This document shows, piece after piece, positions 12,940 through 63,113 of a stretch of 64,000 bases of DNA. The position numbers were made by a program, and so were the translations under genes. The stretch is from Tetracentron sinense (lineage: Eukaryota; Streptophyta; Magnoliopsida; Trochodendrales; Trochodendraceae). The notes beneath the pieces are model-generated. The model was not told the DNA's origin. It searched no databases and was given only the letters and a program-made list of their open reading frames with translations. Location of the stretch: the NCBI GenBank assembly GCA_015143295.1, contig CM026551.1, positions 45,062,034-45,126,033 on the forward strand, given 5' to 3'. The stretch's first letter is position 1; each line of letters opens with the position of its first letter.

Positions 12940-14030
12940 GGGCATTTACTGGGATGACCAATCGACCGATTAGAGGGGTTGACCGGTGGTCTACCTGTTG
13001 ACTGCTTCTGGTGACCGGTCAACTACTGGTCAAGAATTTTTGTATGGCCAAAATTTCCAGTGGGCTGTTTTTTGACCGGTCACCTCACGGATTTAGGTTT
13101 TCTACTTGGTTTCCATCTCCTATATTGCCCTATATATAAGTTGGATTTAAACCCCATTCGACCCAAGAGAATTGTGAGAGTTTACAAAGAGTTTCTAAAT
13201 GATATTTTGGGTTTCCCAAACCCATTAGACTCTCCTCTTCCACCCTAGAATATGCAAGACATTGTTTGATCTCTTGCTTGTTTATTCAATTGTTGGAATT
13301 CATCTAGGATTTATTAATTTAACAACCATCAACCCATTTTGTTAAGAACATTGGTTGGTGTGATCTGGATCCTTTGTGATGGAGTTCGATCGGAGAAGGA
13401 TCGTGGTTATTTGGTCAGTAGAACCCGAACCCATCATTGATGAAGATCGATAAGAAGATTGTGGTTTTGGAGATCTAAGAGAAGTACAAGCACGGGACTT
13501 ACAGGTACGTGATGACTTTTCGACAGTGTTGTCAGAACCGGGCTGGCCAGTCGAATCAGAAACTGGCCCCCTTCGCCAGTTCCCAAAACCCTCAAAATTG
13601 GAACTCTTTTAGAACCGGTGGTTGAAAACTGGTCAGAAACGGCTAGAACTGAGAAAAATTAGGAAAAAATGAAAGAATAAATTAGTTTTTTATGCAAAAA
13701 GTACACAGTCAAACCGGACCAATTAAATCGGTAGAATCGGGAACTAGGAACCGGTCACTCTACCGGTTCGATGCCCGGTTCAGTTATGAAAATAATGCTT
13801 TATCGAGGTGTGGAAGAATAAGAATTGAAGGATCGTAGTGTCGAGTCTGAAGGAGTCAGGTTCGAGTCTTGTAAGTATTTGTTTACTTTGTCTTAGTGAT
13901 ATCTCTTGCTGGACTAGGTCCCGTGATTTTTCCTAAAAGGGTTTCCGCATAAAAATACATTGTGTTGTTGTTTGCTTGTTTCCCTTATTCCGTACTTTAT
14001 TGTTCATCCTCCTTTAGTTAATAATTTAAT
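12940..14030 (+). mobile_element. Copia-type LTR, probably solo, interrupted by a MITE
   Basis: It shows the LTR order palindrome cluster (12958-13083: ACCGGTC, TTGACCGG and similar), TATA box (TATATATAAG at 13131-13140), leader, and a U5-like stretch with GGGTTTCCGCATAAAAATAC near 13940. The U5 wording resembles the minus-strand LTR at 50.5-51.7 kb. Exact ends and a target duplication were not found. No internal coding part adjoins it. Confidence 0.5.
13524..13797. mobile_element. hAT-like MITE inserted in the LTR above
   Basis: The left end CAGTGTTGTCAGAACCGG and the reversed right end CATTATTTTCATAACTGAAC are imperfect inverted repeats, both leading into GAACCGG words. Flanks CTTTTCGA (left) and CTTTATCGA (right) look like an approximate 8-bp target duplication. 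The interior is rich in ACCGG and CCGGT. Confidence 0.5.
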
Positions 14031-14543
14031 TGTTAAATCTTAAAAATGGTAGATAGACTTGTAGGGAGACCTAGCCACCCCATTGGGTTTGTGAGTTCTT
14101 GACTCAAACATAGAATTGGGATTCACCAAATCTCAAAATTTAACAACCACTAAGAATTTTATGAACCTACTCTCTAAGAAAATAGAAAAAGACACAAATA
14201 GTGTGATGTGCATATAATAATGTTAATTACTACCCCTTTATTTGCATATGTTTATTATTTATCTTGTCTTAACTTTTTTAATAATAATTTTTCTCTTGTT
14301 ATGTAGGAATTTGAGAGAGTTGCATAGGAATGATGATAAATCAAGGGTATAGATGACTTTTTATGTGAAAGCTCGGAAAAGAAAAACTAAATTCTCATTA
14401 TAAAAAAAGCTTGAGTATAGTGGAGAGGTGCAAGAAGTTTCATGCAAGTGGCCACGGGTTCAAGCTTTGCTACATTCATATTTTATTTTAAAGACCAAAG
14501 TGTGTAGAAACTTATTCCAAATGTATAAAGCATGGGGGCACCG
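14031..14543. other. Short intergenic stretch without a supported gene
   Basis: AT-rich sequence between the Copia LTR and the Gypsy solo LTR. I see no conserved coding frame or clear repeat in it. Confidence 0.5.
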
Positions 14544-16927
14544 TGTAGTGCCCCAGAACTTTTCATATCTAATGAACAATATTTTATTAGCCAATTGGCC
14601 TTTCACGTAATCTAATTAATAAATAAAGAAGAATTTGAAAATTATGAAATGTCAGAAATGTTCATTTTCGAAAGACGAATCCAACGTAAGTTGAATCGTC
14701 AAAATCCGATGAATGAGTCAAAAGATATGACCAAAATACCAAAGTAGGGAAAAATGAGGAAAATCAGCAGAATTGGCAAAAACACAGACCAACCGGTCAA
14801 TCGCTCCAGCCATTGGTCGACCACTCTCACCACCAGTCGATCGCTCTCGCACTAAAACTTGCATGAGAGATTTTTCCAGAGAGGGGATTTTAACCGGTCG
14901 ACCGCTCCTCACCACCAGTCGTCCGCTAGCCTACCGATCGACCGCTCCTCGAGCATTTTGCCTATTTTGGTCTGTATGGCTGAAATTTGAAGGATAGGAT
15001 GGTCATTTGACCAACCCATTTTCTATATAAGCCCAAATCCATGGATGAGGGTTTCATAAACCTTCAAAGCTCATATTTGGGAGATTTAGAGAAGAGAGAG
15101 AAGGGAAGAACTAGGGTTTGCTCAAGACCCATTTCAAGCAAGGATTTTCTCCACCAAGGATTGGATCTCATCTTGCCTCAAGTTCTCCTCCAAGTTTTAA
15201 AGGTTAGTACACCCTACTAACTCACTTAGCAATAACGTAGTTTTCTTTATTGTAAATGATGATTTCGATCTTGTATTCCTCTTCTTCTTAAAATGTGTTG
15301 TTCTCCCTAAATATAAACAAGATAAATGGAAGGTGTGTGATGTATGGATGGATGTGGTTGAGGCGATTGGATGCCATATGAGTGATGAACGTGTGTTGGA
15401 AGGAAACAGTGAATGGGCATTTCAAGCATAAAGAATATACCTTATGTGGTTTGATGAAATTTATGCACTAAGAAATTAAAAATGAAATGACTATGAATGT
15501 GTTGCATGCCATGTGTTTGATAAAACACCCACATGAGAATCTAATGGATTTAATAAAGAAAATGGAAGTGGGCTTTATGTGATTTTCCCTAAAAATGATA
15601 AGTTGATCAAATGCTCCATATGTTGTCTAAATCCTCTCATGATTATATTAAGAATGAAATGTTATACATCTTCCCTTTTGTTGCACATGCTATCATGATC
15701 ACTACAAGTGCTACACACATGATTCTTTTTATTTATTCATGTCATCATGATTATTACACAGTGCCTCACACACACACATGCATGTATTAACCGAGATTTT
15801 CCTAAAGTATAAAGTATACGAAACAACAAGAACAAGAAGGTGATTTACAATACGAATGATAAAGCCGGACATCGGGCTGGTAAAGGGTAGGGCATATCCC
15901 TAGGATATGTCATACCTGGCTCACAAGAAAAACAAGCATGAATGTCAAGGGTAGGGCATATTGGAAGATATGTCATACCTGGCTCACAAGAAAACAAGAC
16001 AAGGAGGTTGGTGTACCATTTTCTATATATATATTTCGTTGAAGGGAACTTACGTTCCCAGCTCACAAGTTGCTTCAAGGGTACTAACCTCTGGCTCACA
16101 AGTATACAAGCAAGTCAAGTCAAGAACATGTCAAGAATATGACAAGAACAAGCAAGAAAAGTGATTCCAAGAAAGACAAGATAAACATGTGTAATTGTCA
16201 CGAACAAGACCAAGACAAGAAACAAGTTTTCGAACATGACGAGCAAGTTTTGAAAGAAACATGAAAGAATATTTTCAAGTATAAGACATGATTCTAAGTA
16301 CGAGTTTTATCGAAGTTTTTCGCATTCATTCAAGCATGTCAAGATTATCATATTGCTTTACTTTCAATACTATTGTCATATACTGCTATTATTTGTTTAA
16401 ATTGATGTGATGAATTATATCTTGTTGCCTTGTATGATTGTTATTGCTATTGTTAGCTAGTAACTTGTACTTGCTGAGTATTCCATACTCAGCCATACTT
16501 TTATGTCGGCAGGTACCGAGGAAGCCCTCAACCCCGAGCCTTGGGTTGAGGAAGAGTATGTTGAGGAGAGAGAGCCTCCTATCCCGATACAGTCGCAGAA
16601 GGATAGGGACCGTGACATTTGGCCTTACTTAGATTACTATTGAGCGTAGTGGGCTCAATAGTTCTTTTTGTATTTTGCTATTTTGATAGGTGGGCATGTC
16701 CACCTTTGACATGATATGTTTTGTATATGTTAACTTGGAATACAGACCACCTTATATTGAAAAGAAAATTTTGGTTTACGCTTCCGCATTCATGATATAG
16801 CTTCTGCACTCTGATTCATGTTATATTATGGTATGATCACCTTGTTCATTGCAGGATGGTTTGGTAGGCAGGAATAGTCACCTCTAAAGTATCCCTTAAC
16901 TCTTAGGGGGTATTTTGGGGCGCAACA
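14544..16927 (+). mobile_element. Ty3/Gypsy solo LTR, about 2.4 kb
   Basis: It begins TGTAGTGCCCCAGAAC and ends GGGGCGCAACA. The flanks CACCG (14539-14543) and CATCG (16928-16932) match at four of five bases, as expected for an old target duplication. Inside are a palindrome cluster (14791-14945), a TATA box (CTATATAAGC at 15023), a leader, a 65-bp duplication and a GTCGGCAGGTACCGAGG segment near 16505. That last segment resembles the U5-side of the 61.1-63.1 kb LTR (GTCGGTAGG near 62714). No internal region is attached. The layout suggests the chromovirus (Tekay/Del-like) lineage, but no domain proves it. Confidence 0.7.
15884..16012 (+). repeat. 65-bp tandem duplication inside the solo LTR
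   Basis: GGGTAGGGCATAT followed by GATATGTCATACCTGGCTCA and CAAGAAAA occurs near 15884 and again near 15949. A third, diverged CTGGCTCACAAG follows at about 16090. Confidence 0.75.
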
Positions 16928-16972
16928 CATCGAGGGTCGTCAAAGCGAGATACATAGGATCCTCTCACAAGT

Positions 16973-17150
16973 GATATTCTAGCATCCAACAAGATCTTTG
17001 GAAGATCTTCAAATTGAAGCCAATTATAGGAGATATTCTAACATTCAACAAATCTTTGGAGGATCTTCAAATTGAAGCCAATTATGGGAGATATTCTAGC
17101 ATCCAACAAAATCTTTGGGAGATCTTCAAATTGAAGACTTAAATTGTGAA
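16973..17150 (+). repeat. 60-bp tandem repeat, three copies
   Basis: The unit GATATTCTAGCATCCAACAA followed by ATCTTTGG(A/G)(A/G)GATCTTCAAATTGAAG recurs near 16974, 17033 and 17092. Confidence 0.85.
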
Positions 17151-17210
17151 GATTCTCTCATATATAGGAGACCCACGGTTCTAGGGAGTCATCATCTTTC
17201 ATCTTTTTTT

Positions 17211-17234
17211 TCTTCTCTCTCTCCCTCCCTCCCC

Positions 17235-17961: not shown

Positions 17962-18342
17962 TGTTAGATTTGTTCCAATTTCAGCAAGGGAGATCGATCG
18001 CCCAAGATGGGCGATCTATTGCCAGTATTGGAGATCGATCACCCCCTTGGGAGATCGATCACCTAAAGCGTAGAGTTTTTGGATTTTTAATAATTTCTGA
18101 GTTTTTTCTTATTTAAGACCCTCTTTGAACTAGGGTTTCTTAAGGGGAGTTAATAGAATTGAAGCCAAAATTTTCTTTGAGAGAGAGAGTGTTTAAGAGG
18201 TTGAGGAACCATTATAGCTCTTTGTTATTGATAATTAGTGAAGAAGAGATCTCTCCGTGGACGTAGCCCAGTTAGGTGAACCACGTATATCTTGTGTATT
18301 CTTGTGTGTTTCTGTTTGCATTCTTTAGGTATCTTTTCACCA
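17962..18342 (+). repeat. 5' LTR of the Tork-like Copia element
   Basis: Starts TGTTAGATTTGTTCC and ends near TTTTCACCA. It holds a palindrome cluster at 17990-18066 (GATCGATCGCCC, GGGCGATC, GATCGATCACC), a TATA-like TTATTTAAG at about 18107 and a U5 segment CCGTGGACGTAG...ACCACGTATATC. It is about 47 bases longer than the 3' LTR because of extra palindromic sequence. Confidence 0.85.
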
Positions 18343-18429: not shown

Positions 18430-21400
18430 TGGCAACTTTGGATTATGGTAGAATCGGGTGAAAGATCTATTGATTCAACAAGGTTTACACAAAACCTTAA
18501 AAGGTAAAGAAAAGAAACCAGAGTCAATATCCGATGAAGATTGGGAAGATCTGAAATTGAAGGCGGCGAGCACCATTAGGTTAAGCCTATCTGACGACAT
18601 TCTCTATCACGTGGTCAATGAGGATTCAGCACCGAAGCTTTGGATGAAGCTTGAGAGCTTATATATGACAACATCGTTGTCAAAGAGGCTATTCCTAAAG
18701 CAGAAACTTCATACTACCAAGATGAAGGAAGGTGAGGATCTCACAAAGCACATCAATGCTCTCAACAGATTAGTCAATGACCTAGCAAGCATTGATGAGA
18801 AGGTCAGTGATGAAGATCATGCCCTACAACTTCTCTTTTCACTTCCGACCTCTTATGAGCATCTCATTACTACTCTACTCTATGAGAATGATTTTATAGA
18901 GTTAGAAGACACAGTAGCAACCCTACTTTCAAATGATTTGAGAAAGAAAAATCAGGAAGAGGAAAATACTCAGGTTAAGGGTTTGTTTGTTAGAGGAAGA
19001 GGAAAGGAAAGGGGAAAGGAGATAGAACAAAGAAGAGGAAGATCGAAATCAAAGTTTGGAAGTACCCTCAATGTCACAATTGCAAGAAATATGGTCACAT
19101 TAAGAAAGATTGCAGAATCCTAAAGGAGGAACCGGAAAGGGAGAAAGGAAAAGCCTCAGACCAAGCTAATGCAGCTTCGAAAGAAATTAGCCATGGCGAC
19201 GTCTTTTGCACCCATACAAGCAAGGAAACCTACTTTGACTCTTAAATTTTAGATTCCGCATGTTCATATCATGTGTCCAAATAGAAATTAGTTTGATACA
19301 TATAAAACCTATGATGGGGGTATAGTTTTGATGAGAAATGATGCAGTTTGTAAGACAGTAGGGATAGGTACTGTCAGGATAAAGATGTTCGATGGAGTTA
19401 TTCGAATCCTAATTGATGTAAGGCATGTACCAGATCTGAAAAAGAATTTGATTTCTTTGGGTACGATGGAAGCCGTTGGGTGTAAATACATAGTTTCAGG
19501 TGGAGCTCTAAAGGTAATCAAGGGAGTCCTTGTTATCCTGAATGGTATAAGGACTGAAACCCTATATAAGATGATAGGGAATACCGTAACAAGTAGAGCC
19601 ACGATTGGTCTATCAGAAGGGGATGATGAGACCAAACTATGGCACAGGAGACTAGGTCATATGAGCGAGAGGGCCTTAATGGAGTTTCATAGTAGAAAAC
19701 TCTTAAAAGGCATCAAAACCTGCAAGCTACAGTTCTGTGGGCACTGTGTATTCGGGAAGCAGTCGAGGGTGAGGTTCAAGACCTCTTCACACCGCAGTGA
19801 GGGAATTCTAGAGTATGTTCATTCAGATGTGTGGGGGCCAACCCCTGTGAAGTCACTGTCAGGATCTCTATATCATGTGACATTTATAGATGATTTTTCG
19901 AGAAAAGTTTGGGTGTACTATATGAAGAAAAAGTCAGATGTTTTTGGAATTTTCAAGCAGTGGAGAGCCAGAGTTGAAAAGTAGAGAGGAAAGCAAATGA
20001 AGTGTTTGAGTTCAGATAATGGGGGAGAATATACATCTACAAAATTCATTAAATTTTGTACAGATGAGGGTATTGCTCGAAACTTCACCACACCCAGAAC
20101 TCCACAACAGAATGGAGTGACAGAGCGAATGAACATAACACTCCAGAGAAAGCTCGGAGTATGAGGATCAGTGCTGGATTGAAGAAAGACTTCTAGGCAG
20201 AAGAAATCAACAAAACAAGTTTTCTGATAAATAGATCACCATCTAAAGTTTTAGATCTGAGGACACCAGAAGAGGTTTGGTCAAGTAAACCTTATGATTA
20301 TTCTATGTTAAGAATTTTTGGTTGTCTAGCATATGCACATGTGTATAGTGATCTGAGAAGTAAGCTTGATTCAAAATCAAGGAAGTGCATTTTTTCGGGT
20401 TTCCAGAAAGGAGTTAAAGGATATAGGTTATGGGATCCTGAAACAAGGAAGATTGTTGTGAGTAAGGATGTAGTCTTTGATGAGACTGCCATGATGAAAA
20501 AGGAGGAGCATTGTGATGATGCAATCGGCAGTAGTGAGCATTCAGTTCAAGTGGAGCTGGATAGATCTGAATCAGATGAAAGTGATGAAGAACCACCTCA
20601 GATCGAGAGAGTTGACCAACAGTCACAGCCACAAAGATCACAACGAGTTCGAAAAGCACCCAGAAGATATAATGATGACACAGACATGGTAGCTTTTACT
20701 CTCATGACTGAGAATGGGGAGCCATCCAGCTTCAAGGAAGCGGTGTCAGATGGTGATCATAGAAAGTGTGAGAAGGCTATGAATGAAGAGATGGAATCAC
20801 TACACAAGAACCAGACTTGCGATCTTGTAGAACTGCCTAAGGGAAAGAAAGTCATTGGCTGTATGTGGATTTCAGAAAGAAAGAACCTACCACTGAAAAC
20901 ATTGAAATAAAGTTCGAGGCAAGACTGGTTGCAAAAGGTTTGGCACAAAGAGAAGGAATAGATTTCAATGAAATCTTCTCACCAGTTGTAAAGCATACCT
21001 TTATCAGAATAATGTTATCGATAGTAACTATGCAAGACTTGGAGCTTGAACTGATGGATGTGAAGATAGCTTTCTTGCATTGAGAGCTAGATGAAGAGAT
21101 ATACATATGATAACCAGAGGGATTTCAGATGAGGGGACAAGCAGATCAAGTCTGCAAACTGAAGAGGTCTCTGTATGGTTTGAAGCAGTCACCCAAGCAA
21201 TGGTACAAGCGGTTTGAATCATTCATGCTGAAGAATGGGTATTCCAGAAGTGAGTATGACCACTGTCTCTATTTTAGAAAACTTAGAGATAGTTCCTTCA
21301 TATACTTAGCATTCTATGAGCATAACATGTTAATTTCTGCCAAAAGCATGTCAGAAGTAAAGATATTGAAGAAGCAACTCAGTAGTGAGTTTGAGATGAA

Positions 21401-22274
21401 AGACCTAGGTACAACAAAAGTGATTCTAGGCATGGAAATTCGAATAGATAGGAAATTGGAAAGACCATCTCTATCCCATGGGAAGTACATAAGGAGGGTC
21501 CTTGCAAGGTTCAATATGCAAGATGCAAAACCAGTAAGTACTCCATTAGCGGCACATTTCAGGTTATCATCTCAGTTATGCCCAGTGACAGATGAAGAGA
21601 AGGAAGAGATGGCTGAATTTCCATATGCAATTGTTGTGGGCAGCATGATGTATGCCATGGTTTGCACTTGACCTGACATCTCACAAGTTGTCAATGTTGT
21701 TAGTAGGTATATGGCAAATCCTAGAAAAGAACACTGGCAGACAGTGAAGTGGATTCTGAGGTACTTGAAGGGTATCATTGATGTTGGAGTCTTGTTTGAA
21801 AAGAGTGACAAATGTGAGGTAGTTGGGTATGTCGATTCCGATTATGCTGGGGACTTAGACGAGAAGGTCTACTACATGGTGTACTTGTTTACACTGGGTG
21901 GAGGATCAATTTATTGGAGATCCATGTTGCAGCCTACTACATCATTAGCAACGACCGAGACTGAATATATGACAACTTCAGAAGTATCCAAGGAAACTAT
22001 ATGGTTGAGAAGTTTGGTTGGTGAACTGGGAGTAAAGCAGGAGAAGATGATTCTTCACTGTGACAGTCAGAGTGCTATACATTTGGCGAAGAATCAAGTT
22101 TACCATTTAAGAACAAAGCACATTAATGTGCACTTCCATTTCATTAGAGACGCGATATCTGAAAATGAGATTTTGTTGGAGAAGATTCGTACAAGTGAGA
22201 ACCCTTTAGATATGATGACAAAGACTGTTACCATTTCCAAGTTTAAACATTGCTTGGACTTTGTTAACATTTGA
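18430..22274 (+). pseudogene. Copia polyprotein region of the Tork-like element (fossil)
   Basis: Approximate parts are gag 18.43-19.05 kb, a zinc-knuckle area near 19.08 kb, protease 19.2-19.5 kb, integrase 19.63-20.35 kb (HRRLGHMSE, HSDVWGP, TPQQNGV), reverse transcriptase 20.75-21.66 kb (QVCKLKRSLYGLKQSP) and RNase H 21.8-22.25 kb (YVDSDYAGD, HCDSQSAIHLAKN, RTKHINVHFHF). Domain order and motifs are standard Copia. The region is broken in several places. Confidence 0.85.
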
Positions 22275-22380: not shown

Positions 22381-22714
22381 TATTAGATTTGTTCCAAGTT
22401 TTGTAAGGGAGATCGATCGCTCCCTTGGGAGATCGATCGCCCAAAGCATAGACTTTCCTAATTTTTAATAATTTCTGAGTTTTTTCTTATTTAAGGCCCT
22501 CTTTGAACTAAGGTTGCTTAAGGGGAGTTAATAGAACTGAAGCCAAACTTTTCTTTGAGAGAGAGAGAGTGTTTGAGAGGTTGAAGAACCATTGCAACTC
22601 TTTGCTATTGATAATTAGTGAAGAAGAGATCTCTCCGTGGACGTAGCCTAGTTGGGTGAACCACGTAAATCTTGTGTGTTTCTATTTGCATTCTTTAGGC
22701 ACCTTTTTATCACA
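22381..22714 (+). repeat. 3' LTR of the Tork-like Copia element
   Basis: Aligned with 17962-18342 over its length. It carries only two GATCGATCG blocks (22411-22441), a TATA-like TTATTTAAG near 22487 and the same U5 segment, and ends ATCACA before AAGGC. Confidence 0.85.
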
Positions 22715-36732: not shown

Positions 36733-37125
36733 TAAAGAATTCTAACACCTACAGAGTTAATGTCTCTCTCACAACCGTGAGAGAAGAGATCTTATTCATT
36801 GATATTTATAAGAGAGACTAAAATAGATTTCCAGCAAGTGTGAGTACACACGGTTTACAGCAAGACTTTCCAAAAGTGTGAAATACTAAAGTGTGGAGTG
36901 CACACGGTTTACAGCAAGAGTTTCTAAAATATTTCTCATTGATTGGAAATCTTTGATATGCAGGGATCTCTTTTTAACTGAATAGGGTAACTCACTGCCT
37001 TGACTTTCTTCATTGGTGCAATTGGTTTAGAAACAATAAGATCCTTCTCTAATGCTATCGTTTTTGCTACAGATCCTGATTGAGGATCTTGGGAATCATA
37101 CGGATCTTGAGAATATGGCTCTATA
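36733..37125 (-). repeat. 3' LTR of the Ale-like Copia element
   Basis: 393 bp. On the element strand it starts TATAGAGCC directly after the purine tract and ends GAATTCTTTA. Nearly identical to 41824-42226. Confidence 0.95.
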
Positions 37126-37136
37126 CTCCCCCTCAA
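37126..37136 (-). other. Polypurine tract of the Ale-like element
   Basis: The element strand reads TTGAGGGGGAG immediately before the 3' LTR, the usual primer site for plus-strand DNA synthesis in Copia elements. Confidence 0.9.
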
Positions 37137-37139
37137 GCT

Positions 37140-40100: not shown

Positions 40101-41757
40101 TGACTTAGATTTTAAAGGGAACATCCATGTATAGCGAGAATAGTCATCCACAAATGAGGCATAATAGCGGAAGCCTTGAATTGAAGCAACAGGTGCATTA
40201 CCCCACATATCACAATGTATTTTATCAAACAAAGATGTGGAACGAGTAGGGGTAGTAACAAATGGAAGTTTGCTACTTTTTCCAAGTTGACAACTAGAAC
40301 AAACTGAACCACTTTCATTCCATTGAGTTACAGAAATAAAGTGCTTAGAATTTAAGTAGGAAACAACTTTTGGTTGTGGATGTCCGAGGCGCTGATGCCA
40401 GATATCTTCTGAAGTCTTCTGTTGTCTTGATGAATAGAATGCCTTAGTAGTTGCATCACTTCGCAGAGTATATAGTCCCCCATCTCTAGTTCCCTTAGTG
40501 AGGATTCGTCCCGACTGTTGGTCCTTGATACAAAACCCATCAGATGTGAACTCAAATAAGCACGAATAATCATCAGTTAATTGACCAACAGATAAGAGAT
40601 TTTTAGTAATGCTGGGTACAACCAAAATATTGTCTATTTTCAAATTCCCATGTGGAGTGGGGAGACTAGTATGACCCGTATGAGATATAGATAGTTCATT
40701 ACCATTCCCAACAATAATCTTGTCTGATCCAGTATAAGGAGATATAGATGAAAGTATACCTGGATTGTTCGTCATATGAGAGGTCGCACCAGTATCAGGA
40801 ATACACTCCGGATCATATGGATCATTAATAGACATGGCCGCCAGTGCTTGAGGTATCTCCTCAGCCTGGTAGGAATGATTAAATCGATGCCAGCATCTCA
40901 AAGCATCATGTCCAGGTTTCTTGCAAATCTGACATAGATGACTAGGCCCGAGAGAACCATCTTTCTTTGATTCGGGTGTGACAGTCTGTTTTTGGCTAGC
41001 TTGGGTAAATCCACGCCCTTTAGAATCAAATGATTGGCGCTTTTGAGCATTCCAATTTCTACTCCCCTTATTTGATTTGTTTTGTCGCTGCCCAACATAT
41101 GCATGAGATTCAGATGTAGTATTTTTTGCTCTGTTGTTCATTGCATCTCGTTGTTCCAATGCAAGAAGAGATGCTGAGAGTTGGGAAAACGTGGGGGGTG
41201 GAGGGCGAGCCATGATAGCATCAGCAAAGCTATCAAAGCGTGGTCCCAACCCATTAACCGTCCAGAACACTTTATCTCTATCAGATACTGGTTTTTGCAT
41301 AGCATATAGTTCATCGCAAATAACTTTAACAGTCTTTAGATATTCAGTAACACTTTGCTCACCTTTACGGATGGTTTGTAGTTGGCGAATCAATCCAAGT
41401 TCCCTTTCTTGAGAAGCTCCGGCAAAGGTTTCGGCAAGGCACATCCATATTTCTCTTGCCGTCTTAAGTCCGATTACGAATGTATGGACCTCTTCTGTTA
41501 AGGTTCCAGAAATCAGACTTTTGAGAAGTTGATCATCTCTTCTCCAACTAGCATAGGCGGGGTTTGTTTCCTCCGTGCCATCCGAGATAATTAGCTGCTT
41601 TGGTTCTTTCACTTCGTCAGCTATATGATTGAGTAAATCAATGTTCTCAATCATGGGAAGAATCTGGTCCTTCCAAGCGAGATAGTTTTTCTCAGTGAGC
41701 TTAGCTGTCACCATAGAACTAATCTGCGCAATAGTGGATATTGTTAAAGACGCCATT
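37140..41757 (-). CDS. Copia polyprotein region (gag, protease, integrase, RT, RNase H) of the Ale-like element
   Basis: The probable start MASLTIS is near 41756, about 55 nt after the primer-binding site. Gag with a UBN2-like core (KLTEKNYLAWK, LEQRD) covers 41.75-41.0 kb. A zinc knuckle CQICKKPGHDALRC is near 40.93 kb and the protease motif CIPDTGATSHM near 40.8 kb. Integrase covers about 40.4-39.7 kb (HQRLGHP, CSSCQLGK, HCDMWGN, PEQNGVAERKHR). A serine- and proline-rich linker lies at 39.5-38.7 kb. RT covers 38.65-37.8 kb (CQLKRALYGLKQAPRAW, LYVDDIILTG) and RNase H 37.65-37.2 kb (FSDADWAGCP, HARTKHIELDYHFVR). The order integrase before RT is diagnostic for Copia, and the gag and short LTRs fit Ale. 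The region looks nearly whole, with about one break; it is an element gene, not a host gene. Confidence 0.9.
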
Positions 41758-41811
41758 GAGAGAGGACTAATCTGTAGAAGCAAGAAGTTGATCACACTAG
41801 AACGTGTGTGT

Positions 41812-41823
41812 GCTCTGATACCA
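41812..41823 (-). other. Primer-binding site of the Ale-like element (tRNA-iMet)
   Basis: The element strand reads TGGTATCAGAGC, complementary to the 3' end of plant initiator methionine tRNA, with no gap to the 5' LTR. Confidence 0.95.
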
Positions 41824-42226
41824 TAAAGAATTCTAACACCTACAGAGTTAATGTCTCTCTCACAACCGTGAGAGAAGAGATCTTATTCATTGATATTTAT
41901 AAGAGAGACTAAAACAGATTTCCACAGATTTCCAGCAAGTGTGAGTACACACGGTTTACAGCAAGACTTTCCAAAAGTGTGAAATACTAAAGTGTGCAGT
42001 GCACACGGTTTACAGCAAGAGTTTCTAAAATATTTCTCATTGATTGGAAATCTTTGATATGCAGGGATCTCTTTTTAACTGAATAGGGTAACTCACTGCC
42101 TTGACTTTCTTCATTGGTGCAATTGGTTTAGAAACAATAAGATCCTTCTCTAATGCTATCGTTTTTGCTACAGATCCTGATTGAGGATCTTGGGAATCAT
42201 ACGGATCTTGAGAATATGGCTCTATA
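41824..42226 (-). repeat. 5' LTR of the Ale-like Copia element
   Basis: 403 bp, about ten bases longer than the 3' LTR through a short duplicated stretch, otherwise almost identical. It is followed by TCTCT and a CT-rich run on the plus strand. Confidence 0.95.
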
Positions 42227-43299
42227 TCTCTCTCTCTCGCTCACAGATGTTAAATGGTTCTATAATAGTAGTGTACATGAGGTACCGACTAACCCCTTTT
42301 TTTTTTTGGGTGGAAATCTTATTCTGTAACTAACACACTCTCTACACTCACACACCGCCAGACATAAGGTAGCCGTTAAGGTGTCATAAAGGTACACTAC
42401 AAAATTCTAAACTTTTAGTGGTGGTTTTAAACCGCCGCCAAAGCTATACAAGCCGCCAGTAATACATATAACACCGGTTTAAAAAACCGCCGTTAATTTG
42501 CTCGTCGGTGAAGCTTTTAATGGCGGTTTATATTACCCGTTGTAGTCGATGAACTTATGGTTGTGGTTTTTTTTAACCCCTTTCACGACAATTAATTAAG
42601 GACAATTCCGTCATTTAAAGTACTCCTATTACGACAGTTATTAACCGTTGCTAAAGACCTGATGTATATCGGCAGTTACAAAGCGTTGCTGTTATTAAAT
42701 AAAAAACAATATGAATCTTGCTTATAGCGGTGGCGTAAAACCGCCATTATATATCAACTAAGTAGCAACGGTATAGAACCGCCGTGGTTACTATTAAAAT
42801 AAATATAATAATATTGCTAATGGCAATGATTTAAAACCGTCACTGAAATTGACTAATTAAAAAAATATTTTTTTTACCTGTATTATGTGTACCTCTCAGC
42901 AATATCAAACACCACAACCATATTCATTCAATTTTCTACATGTAAATAATATATAATAAAACCATCTACTCATATATAATACATGCCCAAAATGTAATAA
43001 TAACAATACATGCCATAAAATGTTCTAGGTACTAAAAAGAAAAAAAAATCCTAGTCTCCCTAACTCTCTCCTGGTAGACGAAATCTCGATAGGTGCATGC
43101 TGCCGGCTCCCTCTTACAAAAATAATAAAATAAAATTTATTTATTAGAATATTAAAATGATAAAATTTAGAGATCTTATAATTAATTAATATGCAAAGAA
43201 ACAAAGTCATCCCAGATTTTTCACACATATAGTACTTAAATATATAAAAGTCTACAGATTTCATCACTAATATGTAAACTCATACCAGATTTTCCATAA

Positions 43300-44035
43300 T
43301 TTTCAAGAATACTTAGGCCTACATCTACACCCGCACACCAAATCCTAATCGGGGCTCGGTTTTTTATGCGGTTTCTTCAATGCGTGTATTTTGATACAAC
43401 CTAACTATAATAATTGGTTTCAGGGGAATCTGAGGTTGTTTGCCCGATTTGGGCACCGAGTAGCCCGAATTCTATAAATTTCAAGAATACTTAGGCCTAA
43501 ACCTACAACTACGCACCAAATCTTAATTGGGGCTCAGTTTTTTATGCGATTTCTTCTAATGTGCGTATTTCGACACAACCTAAGAGTGTGAATTGGTATC
43601 GGGGGAATCCGAGGTTGTTTGCCCGATTTGGGTACCAAGTAGGCCGAATTCTATAATTTTCAAAAATACTTAGGCCTAAACTTACAACTGCGCACCAAAT
43701 CCTTATCGGGGCTTGGTTTTTTACGCAGTTTCTTCTAACGCATGTATTTTGACACAACCTAAGTGTGTGAATTGATTTCGGGGGAATTTGAGGTCGTTTG
43801 CCCGATTTGGGCACCGAGTAAGCCGAATTCTATAATTTTCAAGAATACCTAGGCCTAAACCTACAACAGCGCACCAAATCCTAACTGATGCTCGATTTTT
43901 TATACGGTTTCTTCTAACGCATGTATTTCGACACAATCTAAGTGTGATAATTAGTTTCGGGAGAATCCGATGTCATTTGCCCAATTTAGGCACCGAGTAG
44001 GTCGAATTCCATAATTTTCAAGAATACCTAAGTTG
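43300..44035. repeat. About 180-bp tandem array, four copies plus a partial, inside the CACTA element
   Basis: The unit anchor AAGAATACTTAGGCCTA recurs near 43303, 43483, 43662 and 43842, with a partial copy near 44021. Each unit has GCACCAAATCCTAATCGGGG, TTTTATGCGGTTTCTTC and TTGCCCGATTTGGGCACCGA. Open frames across it (43542-43814 and 43721-43936, minus) translate the same peptide repeatedly, so they arise from the repeat and are not genes. Confidence 0.9.
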
Positions 44036-50462: not shown

Positions 50463-50491
50463 GTTAAGTGTCTGAAATTTATCCAGATCAA
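50310..50491. mobile_element. Fragment of a GAGCTCGAGC-rich hAT-like repeat, left part
   Basis: AACAACTCGAGCTTG and CCAAGCTCGAGCTTG words precede a (TA)n run at 50420-50453. The likely other part, 51690-52000 (GAGTCGAGCTCGAGC), lies beyond the solo LTR, suggesting that the LTR split it. Confidence 0.4.
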
Positions 50492-51680
50492 TGATCTCTA
50501 CGACCTAGATGGGGGGTGAATAGGTCTATCTAATAATTTCTAACCAATTTTAATTTTTCAATTAATATGTTTAGAAATCAATGAACAATTCACTCAGACA
50601 ATCCACACAAATCAAACACAGAAGATTTTTACGTGGAAAACCCTAACAGGAAAAAACCACGGGACCTTGTCCAGCAATAAACTTCACTATGAAAAGATAT
50701 CAAGTACAAGATAAGACCTTACCAAAACAGAAACGACGTTCCTAGGTATAGACTTTTACTCTTGATTTCCATGAACCAGCAGGTTCGATCTCCGCCGTAT
50801 CAGCTTCGGTTCCACACCGACCAAATCTTCTCAAGCTACTTCAAAACCACGATCACACACGATCGATCTCCTTCCACGAAGGCTCCGGATCAAACACCGG
50901 ACACACACACAAGGTGTAGGGTTGTGAATCAATTTAGGAAGTTTCAAACCCTAGAGGGATCTCATACAGATCTGAGATCACACAATGCAAGATCAAAGGT
51001 TTAGATCTATACTTGCATTCTCTAGGATCAAAGAAAGAGGAGGGATCAACAAAGATCTAATAGAACAATAGGAAAAACCCTAGAAGAGTTTCTCAGACCT
51101 CTACTCTTTCAAAAAATCAAAGACACGAATTAGGTCTCCAAAAAGTTATTTATATAGGGTTTAAAAAAAGAATCCAGAAAAATAAAAATTCTTTTTACGG
51201 GGACCGATCGATCGGTACTCATTATCGATCGCTCGGTCCAAAACGGATCGCTCGGTTCTCATGACCGATCGCTCGATTAAAAATCATCTCTCTGGAAAAA
51301 TATCCCATACAAAATTTTTGTCTAGTCGATAGCCACCGATCGCTCGATAGGCCATCGATCGATCGGTCTCAATACCGAGCGATCGGTTGAGACAGAATTT
51401 TTTCAAACCATATGTCTTTTCATGTTTATTTGATTCAACTAAGATCAAACAACTTTGTTAGGTTTAAAACTATCCTCCTAGGTATGTTTAGAGTTATCTA
51501 AGTCAAATCCAACCTAGGTAGGGGTCTCTAAGTCCATTACCTTTCTAGATCCAGAGTAGGAGCTTTTTCTTCACTTTCTTCAATCTTCTTGATGCTTTAG
51601 CTCTTCTCTTCTGACAAGTTGAACACGACTTGACGACTCGACTCACATGACCTATCTAATGATCACGGAATTTGCCAACA
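50492..51680 (-). mobile_element. Copia-type solo LTR, about 1.19 kb
   Basis: On the minus strand it starts TGTTGGCAAATTCCGTG and ends GGTCGTAGAGATCA. In element order it holds a palindrome cluster (51392-51203: CGATCGATCGG, CCGAGCGATCGG), a TATA box near 51155 (CCCTATATAAAT), and a U5 with GGGTTTTCCACGTAAAAATC. The U5 resembles the LTR at 12.9-14.0 kb. No internal region and no matching 5-bp flanks seen. Confidence 0.6.
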
Positions 51681-52000
51681 CCTATTTAGGGATTTACAGT
51701 GTCTACAATATGTTTATAAATATGTTAAGTTAATTATTGAGTTATGAATTTATTATATATATATATATATATATATATTTAAGTATGTTAAATATCTAAG
51801 AAATGTATATATTTTAAAATTTGATATTATCAATTGATCTATGATAAAAGAATTTGGACTTATGATCTAAAAAATAGAAAGGATAACTGAGTCGAGCTCG
51901 AGCTAATAATTTTGTTTACGAGTCATGCTTAAACAAGATTAGTGAAAGTCGAGTCAAGCTAAAACACCCTGCTGCGTGCTCTGCTCAGCTCAGTTACACC
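51681..52000. other. GAGCTCGAGC-rich repeat fragment and TA microsatellite
   Basis: A (TA)n run at about 51755-51778, then GAGTCGAGCTCGAGC and CGAGTCAAGC words. Probably the right part of the element at 50310-50491. Confidence 0.4.
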
Positions 52001-53215: not shown

Positions 53216-55252
53216 TGTAACGATCCCAAATTCCCACCTTAACCAAAATGGGCTTTGGGTTTACATTACTTAAACCTGCTTAAATCCCATGACATACAAG
53301 GCATACCAACACGAGTCACCAAAAATGAGAATAATAGAATTCGATATAGATAAAACCAAACCATCCTATGCAAGTCTGACCCATGAGAACATAACGCACC
53401 ATAACTATGATCCAACAAAGGTAATAAGATTCTAAGCAACATCATCCTGGATAACATGAGTCTATTACAATCCTTACAAAACGTAAAACAAGGCCTAATA
53501 GTATGGCCACTTATCCAACTCTCGAGCATCCTCAATTGGAGGCTCACCTTCTTCTTTCTCATTGACGTAAAACTCCTCAACCCACGACTCTGCCGTGTAC
53601 TCCTGCTCTATACCTGCCAATAATAACAGGTCAACTAAGTATGGAAAACACTCAGCGGATAAGTAGTCTAACCAATAACATAATATCATTTGAATATATG
53701 CAATAACATAACCATTTCGTAAACATATAATCAGAGTGCGTAAGAGCATGCGAGACATATCATATTTTCATCTTGACTCATGTGGAATTTTGAGCGTGAG
53801 AGACTCTTAGACTTGATCTTACATGATACATGTTCTTATGAGCTTGTGGGATAGTTCTTATGAGATTCCATGTCCCTTCCGCAAACCATTTCTTATGAGC
53901 TTGTGAGATATTTGGGCCATGCATGCATGCTTGTAAGACATGTGAGACTCGTGAGACTTATAGACTTACCATGCAAGTGAACGTGTGCTTGAGTATCGCA
54001 ATTGACATTCGATTAGGTCATTCCTTAGGTTCCGATCTCCCACCATGGAAACTCTACCATAACATTCCATACTGAATGATTAGAGAATTCCCGATCTGGA
54101 AGACTTCCCTCTAAGTTGTGGCTTACCCGAATACCAATCACAATTCAATATAAATAGGGCATAGTTTAACACAAGAAACATAATTAACATTTTAGCATAG
54201 TTTAGCGTAAGAGTTGTAACTAACATTTTTAGCATAATTCATTCATTTCCATAATACATTTCTTAACTTCAAACTCATTTCATTTTCATTCATACATAAA
54301 AACAAACACCCTTCCTCCAATTCATATAACTCATCCTCCATTGAACACATACATCACCATTCATTCAAACTCAATCCATCACTAATTCCCTTCCACCATT
54401 TCCTATCCATTCATCATTTAACAAAGAATAGAGCATGAGCTACTAATTCCCAATATCTTAAACACATGCCAACAATCCCATTTCATGAGTAACAACTCCC
54501 ATTCACCAATTATATAACCATTTTCATGAAAATCATGCAACAAAACTCTAAATCAAACATACTTAAGCTTAGACATTACATAATACAGTAAGTTAGAAAG
54601 CATATCGACCTTTGGGATCCTTCCCTTAGATCCAAATCGCAAGATGAAGCTCCTCGAAGCTTTGGGGTTGATTCTCCAAGCTTTAATCTCATTCCTCAAG
54701 CTAAAACTTCCCTTCTTGAGCAATCTCCCTAACTATGAAACCCTAGGTTTTCTCTCCCCTTTTTGCCAAATTAGGTTTAGAAAAGTTAGAACCCTAAAAC
54801 TCTCGAAATAGAACCTCCATTTATAGCCTAGGGCTTTAAAACCATGATTTCCATAACTTTAAAAAAACATTCATGCGCACGACTGTGATCGATCGTACAT
54901 GCATTGCTATCGATCGTAGCTCTTTAGTGCAATCGATCGCACCTGATGGTGATCTGTCACATGAACCTCAGAAAATTTCTCAGAAATTTGACTGAGTACG
55001 ATTGATCGTAGGTCCCCTGCGATCAATCGTAAATAGAATAGAGATTTCCCCAGTTTTTTTCATTGAGTGTGATTGATCGTAAGCCTCTTGCGATCAATCG
55101 CATGCTTTGTTTGACCTCTATTTGCTTTCTTAGGCCATTTAAACACACTACACCGCTTTGTTATTATTAAACAAGCATAAAAACATAACAAAAGACTAAT
55201 CTACCCCGTATTAGTTGTACTAATGACATGAAAGAAAGTTTGGGTCTCTACA
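53216..55252 (-). mobile_element. Ty3/Gypsy solo LTR, about 2.0 kb
   Basis: The plus strand begins TGTAACGATCCCAAATTCC and ends TTTGGGTCTCTACA. Flanks TCTGA (53211-53215) and TCTTA (55253-55257) match at four of five bases. In element order it holds a palindrome cluster (55105-54885: GCGATCAATCG, CGATCGATCG), a TATA box near 54825, a leader, and a variable 3' half. It is the same family as 61097-63113 in the opposite orientation, for example GATCCAAACTTTCTTTCATG against GACCCAAACTTTCTTTCATG. No internal region is present. Confidence 0.8.
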
Positions 55253-55486
55253 TCTTAAATATCTCTTATTGTTCTTGAAAGCGCAAGGGAGCTTTGAATG
55301 TGTGTTGTATCTTCTTTTCCTTCAGGGCTTGGCGCTTGATTGGCTAGGAAGGTGTGTGTTATTTCTAATTTTCATTCTTTATGAGCTTTGTGCTTGATCG
55401 ACTAGGAGAAATTGCTTCTAGAGGAGAACTTGATTCTTTTTTTTTTGCTTGATCTTCTCTAGAGAACTTTTTTTAAGGAAGGATTG

Positions 55487-56095
55487 TGTTGTATTTGGCT
55501 CGAATTCAAGGAAAACCAAAAGGTTCGATCGATCGGTGGAGCGACGCGGGATTGGCTTGGAGTGTCGATCGATCGGCGCCACCAAGCGATGTGGGATTGG
55601 CTTGGAGTGCTGATCGATCGGCCAGGGTGGCGCCGATCGATCGGCCAAAGCGGGATTTTTCAGAGATTTTGCTATTTTAAGTCTTTTATGTTTTGAGAAA
55701 CTCCTATTACGAGAAGAGACTTTCTAATTGTGTAGGACTCCATGTTTAGGCCTATATATACGTAGTTATAGGTTTAGGGTTTGTATCAATCGATAATTGA
55801 AAGATCAAGGGAATGTTTTTGCATTGGGAGTAAGAGATTATAGAAAGTGTTGAAACATACTAGGGTTTGGGAAAGGTTTAAGGGAGGATAGATAAAGATT
55901 TTTCTTTGGGTTTTCATAGAGAATGTGAGTTGAGTGCTTTTGTACTGATTCCTCAAGGTTTCTGTGAATAAAGAAGTGATCAGATCTTGACCCGTGGATG
56001 TAGGCAGGTTGTTGCAGAACCACGTATATCTCTTGTGTTCTCTTTTGTGTTTGTTTTTTGCTTATTTTTTTCCGTATGGTTTTATTATTTGCTCA
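55487..56095 (+). mobile_element. Copia-type LTR, Tork-like, probably solo
   Basis: It starts TGTTGTATTTGGCTCG, has a palindrome cluster at 55527-55645 (TCGATCGATCGG four times), a TATA box CCTATATATA at 55751, and a U5 with CCGTGGATGTAGG...ACCACGTATATC that matches the Tork-like element at 17.96 kb. The right end near 56095 is approximate and no target duplication was found. Confidence 0.6.
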
Positions 56096-56836
56096 ACTAA
56101 TTGCTCTTCTTACTTTATTTCTCTCAGGAGAATTATGAAGTTTAAGTGTTGATTTGTTTTGATTTAATTTTTTTAATTGTGTTTTCCTTTCCCTGGCTTT
56201 AATCTTGTATGCTTAAATATTTTAGATAGGATTGTAGGTCCCACTTTCATTTGATTGATTTTGGGGATTTTAATTAGTTAGCTCCACCCACTTCCTTAGA
56301 TATTGATTTCATATTTAGGCTTTTTATGCTTATAGGCAGGCTCACTTTGATTGATATATGGCTCGCTTTTAGATTGACCCATTTTGGTGTATGTATAACC
56401 TATCTCTAGATGAATCATTTTGGTGGGTGTATGGCCCTTCATGTAGCCTATGTCACTTTTGGATATATTTTGGTTGTGGGCTTTATCATTTGAGGCTTAA
56501 ACTTGGACCATTGGGGGTTATTTTGATGTAACTGGATACAAATTTGGATATGCCACTATCTGCTTTGTTGATAGCTCTATTCAGAAGTGTGTATAGACCT
56601 TTTTGTAAACTTTTAAGCTGCATTTCAATTTTTGGAATTGATAGACAAAATTGTTATTTATATCCCAAGATTTCAATTCTATAGTTTGGGATGCATTAAA
56701 AAAGGGTGAAATTAAAAATCTTATTTCATAGGCTAAATGAATAGAATTCAAGTCCATATATGGAGTCATTATTTGACAATTACACACTAGTACGAAATTT
56801 GAAAAAGAGGCAAGTGTAACAAAAAATTGTATCAGT
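56096..56836. other. Intergenic DNA, no gene seen
   Basis: No supported gene. The minus-strand frame at 56581-56847 shows no known domain. Confidence 0.5.
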
Positions 56837-59431: not shown

Positions 59432-59638
59432 GGTCCGCTAATCACTTCTCTTTTACATTTTATGGGAGGCACCGAATTTCCTTTTGCAGATGCCCAAGTA
59501 TTATACATGGGCATAGTCTCTTTGGGCGATGGCGTTCATGGGCAACGGAATTTCTCTACAGAAGCCCCGTATTACATTCGGGCACCACTCTTTGCATGAT
59601 GCTTGGGGAGGCATTTAAGTAGGAGAGTGATAATGCCA

Positions 59639-61096
59639 CACTCTGATACCCTTATACACAATATACGTTATATTTTTATAGGTTTTCGAAGCATGAACCT
59701 AAGACAAATCCCAATAGTGAATGGATTTCATAAACATACAAAAGTCATCCGAGATATATAAACATAATGAGCATAACTATAATGTTTAAACAAAATATAA
59801 AGTGCGACTAAGTTCTCAACAAAATTCTTTTCCATAACCACTCACTCTCAAAAAATGACAAAGAAATGTTCTTCGAAATTCTCAGTTCCTCAAGAGCCCC
59901 CAAAAGACCTTCAAGTATCTCTTGAAAAATATCGACATAACAAGAGTGAACAATAAGCCCAGCAAGATAAACACATACACACATGCAACACATATAATCA
60001 CAAGTCATAATCACATTTTACTCCTTATGCAATTTGATGACCACTCGAGTGAATTCATTTTCTTCATTTTGAATCACTTGGTTCACATCTGGTGGCCTCT
60101 AGCAACACCTCTAAGATCACATGTCTAGTCTCCTATGGTGGCTCTTGGCAATGCTTCATGGCATGATTCTAGATCATACACCTATTCCTCTATTGGCAGC
60201 CGTTGGCAACACTTCATGGATACCAATGAGATCACACACATTTTCCTCTGTTGACAACCCTTGGCAACACCTCACGGATACCGATGAGATTGTATATCGT
60301 TCACCCAAGGTTAAGTCACTTATTGATATAACAATTATAATGATGAAGGCAATAATAAAGGTGTTATATCTTTCCCGCTACAGTGTCCTATACTACACAT
60401 AGCATGGCCGATCTAACTGCAATTTATTAACTAAGGTAAGTTAGCTATATCCTCTCTGCTATAGCTTTATAGTGTCCTATATTACCATAGTAAGACGGAT
60501 CCAAATAAGCTATATAAGGTTTAAACATTTTAAGCAGTTCACACAAGCATGCACGACAGTTTATCATCATGGTGAATGTACAATTATGAGATGACAACAA
60601 TACGAATGTAATATAGTTAAAAACATCTGTATCAATTTATAAAAATAAAGAAAAAGTATGATTATAATAGAAGCGATCCTAAATATGCATGATTTCTAAG
60701 TTCTGGTTTGAAGGAGTTAATGTTCAAAAAATACACCCTATGATCGATTGGTGATACCCTCTGATCGATCGTAAGCCCACAGAACCCTTTGATCAAATGA
60801 AGATCGCGGAATTGGGAAAAAAAGCTCAGAATTCTGACCCCAAATCCTCCAAATCCATTCTCGTTCTTCCATGGTTGATTTCTAAATATTCACACACATA
60901 TTATCTACACTAAAACATTTCTAGGGTATGAATCTAAAGATTAATGATGTGTTTCTCTTGTCTCAATCCTAGAGATCTAGGGTTTCAAGAAGAGGAAGAA
61001 CCCCAAAATCCTCCAATTCATTCTAACTCAAATCTAGATCATTCATAAACATTTATTACACCAAATGTAACAATAAATACACAATACAATGAATTT
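59639..61096. mobile_element. LTR-derived region, orientation and family unclear
   Basis: CACTCTGATACC at 59639-59650 resembles a reversed tRNA-iMet primer-binding site. Further right lie short tandem repeats, a few GATCGATCG words (60742-60775) and a duplicated ACCCCAAAATCCTCCAA segment (about 60833 and 61000). The order of parts does not fit one intact LTR, so it may be two fragments. It stops at the LTR beginning at 61097. Confidence 0.35.
60085..60300. repeat. About 60-bp tandem repeat, four diverged copies
   Basis: GGTGGC(C/T)CTTGGCAA(C/T)ACTTCATGG-like blocks followed by GATCACA...TCCTCT recur near 60088, 60138, 60198 and 60256. Confidence 0.6.
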
Positions 61097-63113
61097 TGTA
61101 GAGATCCAAACTTTCTTTCATGCTATTAATACAATTAATAAGGGTAGATTAGTCTTTTGATATGTTATTATGCATGTGTTAATTATGGCTAAGTGATGTG
61201 GAGTGTTTAAAATGCTTAAGTGAATAAAAAGTGGGAAAACAGAGCATGTGAGCGATCATAGGGGACCTACGATCGATCGCATCGATCGAAAATCTCGGAA
61301 ATTTTTCTGTGTGATATGTGACCGATCATCATATGTGTGATCGATTGCATTGGAGAGCTACGATCGATCGCAGTGTTTGAGCGATCGATCGCAGTCGTGC
61401 ACAGGAATTTTTAAAAAGGTTACGAAATTTGGGGTTTTAAACCCCTATGCTATAAATAGAGGTTTAATTTCGAGGGTTTTAGGGTTCTAACTTATCTAAA
61501 CCTAATTTGACGAAAAGGGGAGAGAAAACCTAGAGTTTTTCAAAAGAGAATACTTGGAGAGGAAGGAGATTAGGAAGGAGATTAATTAGAGGAGTGAGAT
61601 TTGAAGTTTGGAGATCACACCAAAGCTTCCTTGGAGCGTTTTGGATCAAAGGGAACGATCCCTAAGGTCGATATGTCTTCTAATTTAACCATATTATGTA
61701 ATCTCTATGCTTAAGTATGTTTGATTAAGAGTTTTCTTGCATGATTTTCATGGAAATTGATATATAATTTTGAATGAGGGGTTTTACTCATGAAATGAGG
61801 ATTTTGGCATGTGTTTAAAATGTTGGAAAAAGATAGTTTAAGTTTATTGATTTGTTAATTGATGAATTGTTAGAAATAGTGGAAGGAAATTGATGATGGA
61901 TTGGGTTTGAATGAATGGTTATGATAGTTGGATAATGTCTATGGTAATGTATGTTTTGAATAGAGAAGTTATATGAAATGTAGGAAGAGTGTTTTTATGG
62001 ATGAGTGAAATTGGAAATGAAATGGGTTTAATGTTCATGAAATATGTTATGGAAATAAATGAATTGTGTCAAAATGTTAATTATGATTTTTGTGTTAAAT
62101 TATGACCTATGTATATGGAATGGTGATTGATATTCGGGTAAGCCAAAACTTAGAAGGAAATCTTCTAAACCGGGAATTCTCCAACCATATGCTATGAGAG
62201 AGTATGAAGAGGTTTCAATGGTGGGAGATCTGAACCTAAGGGATGACCTACTCGAATGTCAATTGCGACACTCACGTTCACTTGCATGATAAGTCTTTAA
62301 GTCTCATAAGTCCACATGTCACACAAGCATGCATGCATGACACGAGGAAGTACTAGTCCGCGTATGGACATGGTATCTCACAAGAAATATTTCACAAACT
62401 CTCAAGTATTAGTCCGTGCATAGACATGGTATTTCATAAGAAATATCTCACAAACTCTCAAGTATTCGCCCTTGCATGGGCATGCATCTCACAAGAACAT
62501 GTATCATGTAAGATCAAATCTAAGAGTCTCTCACGCTCACAAGTCAACACGAGTCAAGATGATAGCATGATATGTCTCATATGTTCTTACACACTCTGAT
62601 TATACATTTATGAAATAATGATGTTATTAATTATGTTCAAATGATTTCATGTTGTTGGTTAGACTACTTATCCGTTGAGTGTTTTCAATACTCAATCGAC
62701 CAGTTATTGTCTGTCGGTAGGTTTAGAGTCGGAGTCGATAACAAAACCTTGGATTGAGGAGGCGTAATGAGAAGATGAAGAAAGTGATCTCTTTACCGAG
62801 GAAGTGAGGGACCTCGACCGGTCTCCTTATTATTAGGTTTCATCTTCATTTTAAAGAAATTATAATAGACTCATGTTACTCAAGTTGATGTTTCTTAGCG
62901 TTTTATATCTTGTTGGATTTTAGTCATGGTGGATTATGTTCATGTTGGTCAAACTTGTACAAGATGGTTTGGTTTTATATATCGAATTTTTAATATTCTC
63001 ATTTTTGGAGACTCGTGTTTGGTATGCGTTGTACGTCATGAGATTTAAGGAGGTTTAAGAATGTGATGGCCCAAGGCCCCATTATGACCAAGGTAGAGTT
63101 TGGGATCATTACA
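61097..63113 (+). mobile_element. Ty3/Gypsy LTR, about 2.0 kb, with a short internal start
   Basis: It begins TGTAGAGATCCAAAC and ends TTTGGGATCATTACA. After three or four bases TAGTATCAAAGC (63118-63129) resembles the tRNA-iMet primer-binding site, and a short internal stretch follows to about 63265. It has a palindrome cluster (61252-61395: CGATCGATCGC) and a TATA box TATAAATAGA at 61451. Same family as 53216-55252. The rest of the element is absent or displaced by another LTR. Confidence 0.75.

Follow-up and report, generated by a model that had tools for sequence, protein, structure and literature searches.

Palindromic box clusters upstream of TATA in Copia and Gypsy LTRs of Tetracentron sinense, and a cassette found in both superfamilies

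The closest described counterparts of the sequences examined here, clusters of palindromic boxes in long terminal repeats (LTRs) of Tetracentron sinense retrotransposons, are the RM boxes of Sireviruses, which are palindromic, CpG-rich and located shortly upstream of the TATA box (Bousios et al. 2010; PMC2829016). In the passages of that paper on these boxes, they are called Sirevirus-specific and missing from classic Ty1/copia elements, their core is given as CGG-CCG except in Tnd-1, and the Vitis RM is given as CGGTCGACCG; the comparison was with Ty1/copia elements, and the same passages are silent on a search in Gypsy elements. According to passages of PMC10760457, small RNAs in maize concentrate on palindromic LTR regions of Sireviruses, and maize Ty3 elements generally have no obvious structure peak. 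For Onsen, recombination between co-packaged RNAs inside the family is described in passages of Sanchez et al. (2017; PMC5668417).

The window analysed here is the whole stretch of 64,000 nucleotides at positions 45,062,034 to 45,126,033 of contig CM026551.1 (assembly GCA_015143295.1). A first-pass annotation of these letters had placed eight clusters of palindromic words in LTRs of at least four families from two superfamilies, and had proposed a promoter module that was swapped between families or acquired convergently. The eight clusters were recovered where it had put them, with word counts far above those in shuffled sequence, and a comparison of the window with itself assigned them to only six families: the Sirevirus-type Copia families E and B', the short Copia family C, the Gypsy families A and D, and the non-autonomous family F. 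The clusters at 18.0 and 22.4 kb belong to the two LTRs of one C element, and those at 54.9 and 61.3 kb to two copies of family A that are 72% alike. The count of at least four families and two superfamilies was borne out by pol domains for C, A, D and B'. With moderate confidence, we regard the clusters as U3 promoter modules whose palindromic boxes measure about 14 bp and have a CpG-rich core, akin to the Sirevirus RM boxes, of which one cassette of about 185 bp moved between superfamilies and in which the boxes form a putative array for a host protein.

A cassette in Copia and Gypsy LTRs

The B' copy in the window has the following features:

50473..51698, minus strand: solo LTR of B' (Sirevirus-type Copia), 1,226 bp, with a 5-bp target duplication GTGTC
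51201..51389, minus strand: B' palindrome cassette, consisting of boxes ACCGATCGMTCGGT, a spacer with CCAGAGAG (51288-51301 reversed), and boxes
51146..51159, minus strand: B' TATA-like box CCCTATATAAATAA

An isolated GATCGATC box at 50861 (GGAGATCGATCGTG on the element's strand) also lies in this LTR, downstream of the TATA-like box and outside the cassette.

B' and the Gypsy family B, which lies outside the window, have in common one cassette of about 185 bp that can be aligned over its full length, and the flanks are unrelated. Local alignment scores were obtained for 6 Sirevirus-type and 9 Gypsy loci, giving 54 cross pairs; the superfamily of most of these 15 loci was taken from the LTR framework, and pol was read for three (L068, L093 on behalf of L102, and L113 on behalf of L112). 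Between superfamilies, the cassettes scored 135 on average (91 to 178) versus 16 (maximum 22) for shuffled cassettes, whereas the 150 bp upstream scored 18 (14 to 22) and the 150 bp downstream 19 (15 to 32), with shuffled flanks at 17 (maximum 25), so that only the downstream maximum of 32 rose above the shuffles. Inside each superfamily the flanks were alike, with means of 154 (Gypsy) and 227 (Sirevirus-type) upstream, and of 99 (minimum 29) and 188, respectively, downstream. The best cross pair, L112 and L043, had 152 identities, 29 mismatches and 9 gap columns over 190 columns (80% identical), and the cassette measured 184 to 186 bp in 13 of the 15 loci.

The similarity extends to the spacers. 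The first-pass annotation had noted a 14-base spacer, ATTTTTCCAGAGAG, at 14870 in a Gypsy LTR and reversed at 51288; both occurrences stand and are part of the cassette, and the related spacer AAAATTTCCAG is at 13050, not at 13057 as given there. In box-free spacer sequence, L102 matched the Gypsy loci L091 and L092 in 37 of 42 and 31 of 36 columns, and the B' copy in the window did so in 36 of 42 and 32 of 36. When B' was compared with B, D and E, the spacers (45 to 47 bp) outscored every one of 2,000 shuffles in 16 of 18 cases. Searched in the 1.16-Gb genome, the spacer pattern was found 9,761 times and the control 0 times.

With the boxes masked, BLAST linked B' loci to B and D loci by short spacer stretches only (32 to 73 bp), and the Gypsy-type LTRs, including those of A, B, D and several others, had a common LTR framework. 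Part of what had looked like many families thus reflects common descent within Gypsy. Common descent of the LTRs of all carriers was rejected for B' versus B and D, and accepted within the Gypsy group. The earlier proposal of a module swapped between families therefore stands for the aligned cassette of B' and B, but not as the single explanation of the clusters.

A tree built from 24 cassettes grouped B and B' together (100/98), separately from D (Gypsy) and E (Sirevirus-like), so that the superfamily label needs at least two changes on this tree; monophyly of the Sirevirus cassettes was rejected on the full cassette (p 0.015). As judged from the alignments and the tree, one transfer of the cassette between superfamilies is well supported, and a second transfer is likely. 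The cassette would have moved as a unit. The simplest route would be strand transfer from one RNA to another in the course of reverse transcription, possibly aided by the palindromic repeated ends, with cross-superfamily co-packaging of RNAs as the putative setting.

Copia and Gypsy control regions are commonly assumed to follow independent evolutionary paths. That a cassette reaches 80% identity in the best cross-superfamily pair, between flanks that are unrelated, indicates that a promoter module is able to pass from one superfamily to the other. Its presence in both backgrounds, in thousands of natural variants, also offers a direct test of why palindromes that invite silencing are kept.

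Box clusters, their place before TATA and their carriers

The remaining features of the box-carrying elements in the window are:

12958..13083, plus strand: E cassette (Sirevirus-like Copia), ACCGGTC / GGTTGACC boxes flanking a spacer at 13042-13060
13128..13140, plus strand: E TATA-like box
14791..14945, plus strand: D cassette (Gypsy), ACCGGTCGACCGCTC-type boxes flanking a spacer at 14862-14883
15021..15034, plus strand: D TATA-like box; the D LTR starts at about 14544 (TGTAGTGCCCC)
17990..18066, plus strand: C boxes of GGGAGATCGATCGCCC type in the 5' LTR of a short Copia element; the LTR starts at about 17962
18452..22271, plus strand: internal Copia frames of C, with Retrotran_gag_2, gag_pre-integrs, Pol_BBD and SH3_retrovirus
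22411..22441, plus strand: C boxes in the 3' LTR of the same element
54885..55105, minus strand: A cassette, second copy, with many GATTGATC / GATCAATC boxes; TATA-like box at 54814-54826
55527..55645, plus strand: F boxes of GGCCGATCGATCGGCC type; TATA-like box at 55752-55762
61252..61395, plus strand: A cassette with TACGATCGATCGCA-type boxes; TATA-like box at 61450-61462

Together, the eight clusters cover 1,063 bp, or 1.7% of the window. Words were counted in them with a 6-bp margin, and 100 dinucleotide shuffles of the whole window served as background. The clusters held 30 of the 37 copies of CGATCG (shuffles: mean 3.1, maximum 9), 15 of the 18 copies of GATCGATC (mean 0.57, maximum 3), 4 of the 8 copies of ACCGGTC (mean 0.96, maximum 4), both copies of GGTCGACC (mean 0.20, maximum 2; not significant as a single word) and all 8 copies of the decamer CGATCGATCG (mean 0.01, maximum 1), in line with the earlier judgement that random occurrence is unlikely. 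GATCGATC was also the most frequent 8-base palindrome with more than two kinds of letters in the window (18 copies; 7 for the runner-up). The box cores are CGATCGATCG or CGGTCGACC, with CGATCGATCG dominant. The exact CGATCGATCG decamer is missing from five of the clusters, those at 13.0, 14.8, 18.0, 22.4 and 54.9 kb, and the boxes at 13.0 and 14.8 kb are of the ACCGGTC / GGTCGACC type.

Every cluster in the window was followed on the element's strand by a TATA-like word, 46 to 107 bp past the last box, as the first-pass annotation had proposed in outline. In addition, we selected 55 loci for their boxes (4 to 20 overlapping box words across 31 to 229 bp). A TATA-like word was present within 250 bp downstream of the last box in 41 of them (median 60 bp, range 41 to 138) and within 250 bp upstream in 8, a count that is partly circular because the loci had been oriented by TATA beforehand. 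A genome-wide test with CTATAAATAG, which is free of this circularity, found CGATCG 45 to 75 bp upstream of CTATAAATAG in 7,592 cases (4,481 + 3,111; control 4 + 2) versus 19 cases downstream (10 + 9; control 9 + 10). A related group of loci, L037, L040 and L065, had many CGATCGATCG boxes but, as oriented here, lacked a TATA-like word for 250 bp to either side; in L040, a TATA was about 500 bp off.

Copia pol with the RVT_2 gene order was identified in the B' locus L093 and in L113, through which it was also assigned to L112, a second B' subfamily. The Sirevirus junction of 5' LTR and primer-binding site (PBS), CA/ATTGG/TATCAGAGC, was exact in the B' locus L108, which also had the poly-C signal; of the polypurine tract AGGGGGAG, which in Sireviruses lies in several copies 10 bp before the 3' LTR, one copy was present in 751 bp of L109, where no LTR start was found. 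The LTR pairs of B' were spaced 8.0 to 12.6 kb apart, and 40 scored places (of 1,786 first-look candidates) were 98% to 100% identical to the query. For E, the relative L110 had the Sirevirus PBS junction with 2 mismatches in 16 and was 69% identical to L108 over 888 bp from the LTR end into the region past the PBS, and two pol pieces of L103 had no Pfam match.

Among the Gypsy families, reverse transcriptase (RT) was identified between paired LTRs in relatives of D (L069, with gag) and A (L074). Locus L068 of family B encodes gag, protease, RT, RNase H, integrase zinc-binding and SH3_Tf2-1 domains, with RT preceding the latter two, and we classify B as a chromovirus-like Gypsy family; its Chromo match (E 1.4e-4, 22.1 bits; Pfam cut-off 25.1) and rve match (23.2 bits; cut-off 32.6) were both below threshold. 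Groups G, H, I, J and K and loci L082, L083 and L088 have no pol-based class, and J and K were placed with Gypsy on the LTR framework alone.

Relatives of C had an LTR spacing of mostly 4.4 kb; the last frame of the C element in the window (21672-22274) had no domain match, and 21114-21671 lay outside the search. The double box of C at 17990-18066 is nearly the same as one in the Gypsy-framework LTR of L051 (GGGCGATCGATCGCCC type, the two boxes lying a few bases apart), which might reflect a second module transfer or convergence and is too short to be called a transfer. In F (55300-56300), the LTR spacing of 2.3 to 2.6 kb in several pairs leaves no room for pol, and F is therefore an abundant non-autonomous element, with 2,240 first-look candidates. 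F and C have one 67-bp block in common.

A young Copia element at 36733-42236 (minus strand), with LTRs that are 96% alike and an open frame of 1,397 amino acids covering gag to RT domains, provides a natural negative. Tandem arrays lie at 43292-44027 (unit 179 bp, about four copies) and 347-781 (unit 91 bp).

Palindromy and the rival explanations

The flanks of the boxes were compared in 127 boxes with the core GATCGATC, sorted into 20 groups, several of which share an LTR framework and are not fully independent; right flanks were re-dealt between groups 2,000 times. The bases at ±2 were complementary at a mean frequency over groups of 0.66 versus 0.31 after re-pairing, and those at ±3 at 0.63 versus 0.30, values not reached in any of the 2,000 rounds. 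In a rerun with 19 groups and 113 boxes plus three subsets, the result at ±2 held throughout (worst case 13 of 2,000); that at ±3 held for all groups pooled, for the Gypsy framework and for ten separated groups, and failed when the nine groups outside the Gypsy framework were taken by themselves (199 of 2,000). Families thus tend to differ in the palindrome, about 14 bp long, that each has built around the shared core, and palindromy itself seems to be conserved, the family-specific flanks remaining complementary at positions 2 and 3. In copies of A, C>T or G>A changes at CpG made up 29 of the 40 differences from the core in 39 boxes, of which 9 were exact; methylated DNA is expected to change in this way.

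We propose that the boxes would be an array of putative sites at which a dimeric DNA-binding protein of the host increases transcription from the nearby TATA box, and that an element acquiring the cassette would gain a promoter that works in this host. The constant core is then read as the site of a protein dimer, and the covarying flanks as a product of pairing. Fast concerted change of the boxes between families may represent escape from silencing or from hairpin-derived small RNAs. A broader proposition, which we put forward only tentatively and give less than an even chance, is that the module of about 185 bp is its own unit of inheritance, which in this lineage has crossed two or more times between Sireviruses (Copia) and chromoviruses (Gypsy), that unrelated families use the same core since one host factor reads it, and that the flanks of each family change together with pairing kept.

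Several results weigh against this account. Two of the spacer comparisons with E were equalled by shuffles (in 70 and 2 of 2,000), and monophyly of the Sireviruses was not rejected on the 49-bp spacer alone (p 0.33). By the words used, 14 of the 55 loci had no downstream TATA. Many LTR families may be devoid of boxes: no box cluster was found in the 1.5 kb upstream of any of 30 loci with a tRNA-Met PBS word at the start of C1 (at most two box words in any; some of them perhaps not LTRs), so LTRs do not carry the boxes in general, and the young Copia element (36733-42236) is without any box word. Finally, there was no excess of complementarity at ±1 (508 of 2,000) and a weak one at ±4 (56 of 2,000), and concerted change of the flanks is not what a fixed protein site predicts, an observation that leans to base pairing as a further constraint.

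The strongest rival, which we consider possible though rather unlikely, is that the palindromes act in RNA: U3 forms the 3' end of the genomic RNA, where hairpins or pairing between copies might serve packaging, dimerisation, 3' stability or a small-RNA decoy. Complementary flanks that vary between families are predicted by pairing and not by a fixed protein site, the folding z-scores of the cassettes ranged from -1.3 to -9.5 and were -3.1 or lower in 7 of 9, and passages of PMC10760457 place maize small RNAs on palindromic Sirevirus LTR regions. However, A_w61 and D reached just -1.3 and -1.7, an RNA copy of palindromic DNA folds regardless of function, the position beside TATA is tight, and pairing alone does not require a core that is near constant across unrelated families. 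We consider an enhancer role, with pairing as a second constraint, likelier.

That the same host factor selected similar boxes independently, with no transfer of sequence, is a very improbable account of the whole: C, F, H, I and others do have the core with no further similarity to B and B' and may have come by it convergently, but the box-free spacers of B and B' are alike and the cassette has a near-constant length, which refutes convergence for this pair if the alignment stands. Copia and Gypsy descend from an old common ancestor, and the cassette could in principle be a relic of it, an idea to which we give almost no weight, as the best pair retains 152 identities in 190 columns while the LTR flanks retain nothing, and such non-coding identity would be unexpected over the age of the superfamilies. 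An expansion of a CGAT microsatellite that happens to sit in LTRs was suggested by a core of two and a half CGAT units, and was rejected, with next to no probability left, because the 14-base extension CGATCGATCGATCG is rare (133 matches genome-wide; control 31) while paired, bounded cores are abundant (CGATCGATCGN{8,28}CGATCG, 42,631 + 56,939 = 99,570 matches, which overlap, recur inside one LTR and are not a count of LTRs; 9 + 11 = 20 for the control, the pattern read backwards).

Comparison with described systems

The first-pass annotation knew of no description of such boxes. For Sireviruses this did not hold, as palindromic boxes before TATA are described in the passages of PMC2829016; for Gypsy elements, no account of such boxes, or of an exchange, was found among the open-access literature matches listed, which do not establish absence from print. 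In one of these searches, ATCGATCG occurred in none of the matches listed. In the passages concerned, PMC11963269 has no bearing on the boxes, nor does PMC3601003, where the word palindrom does not occur.

Set against the passages on RM boxes in PMC2829016, the clusters are alike in that each LTR has several palindromic, CpG-rich boxes shortly before TATA, and the best-kept boxes of E and D hold CGGTCGACC(G), as in the Vitis RM. The PBS junction is exact in B' and a near copy in E, as in Sireviruses. RM boxes are further characterised by extra copies beside an envelope-like gene. Unlike the RM boxes of those passages, a CGG-CCG core (CGGTCGACC) is present in D and E, whereas A, C, F and others have CGATCGATCG, and the carriers also include the Gypsy families A, B and D, the short Copia C and the non-autonomous F. 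In addition, one cassette is common to two superfamilies. The clusters also resemble the palindromes of maize Sirevirus LTRs, which fold and draw small RNAs according to the passages of PMC10760457, but here Gypsy elements have the boxes.

As in cases of LTR recombination and swapping, segments of LTRs would have moved between elements, probably between co-packaged RNAs. Du et al. 2010 is said, by its title, to concern LTR swapping between an autonomous element and its non-autonomous partner. Whereas those cases, as far as the passages and the title go, involve one family or autonomous and non-autonomous partners, the putative exchange here is between Copia and Gypsy elements.

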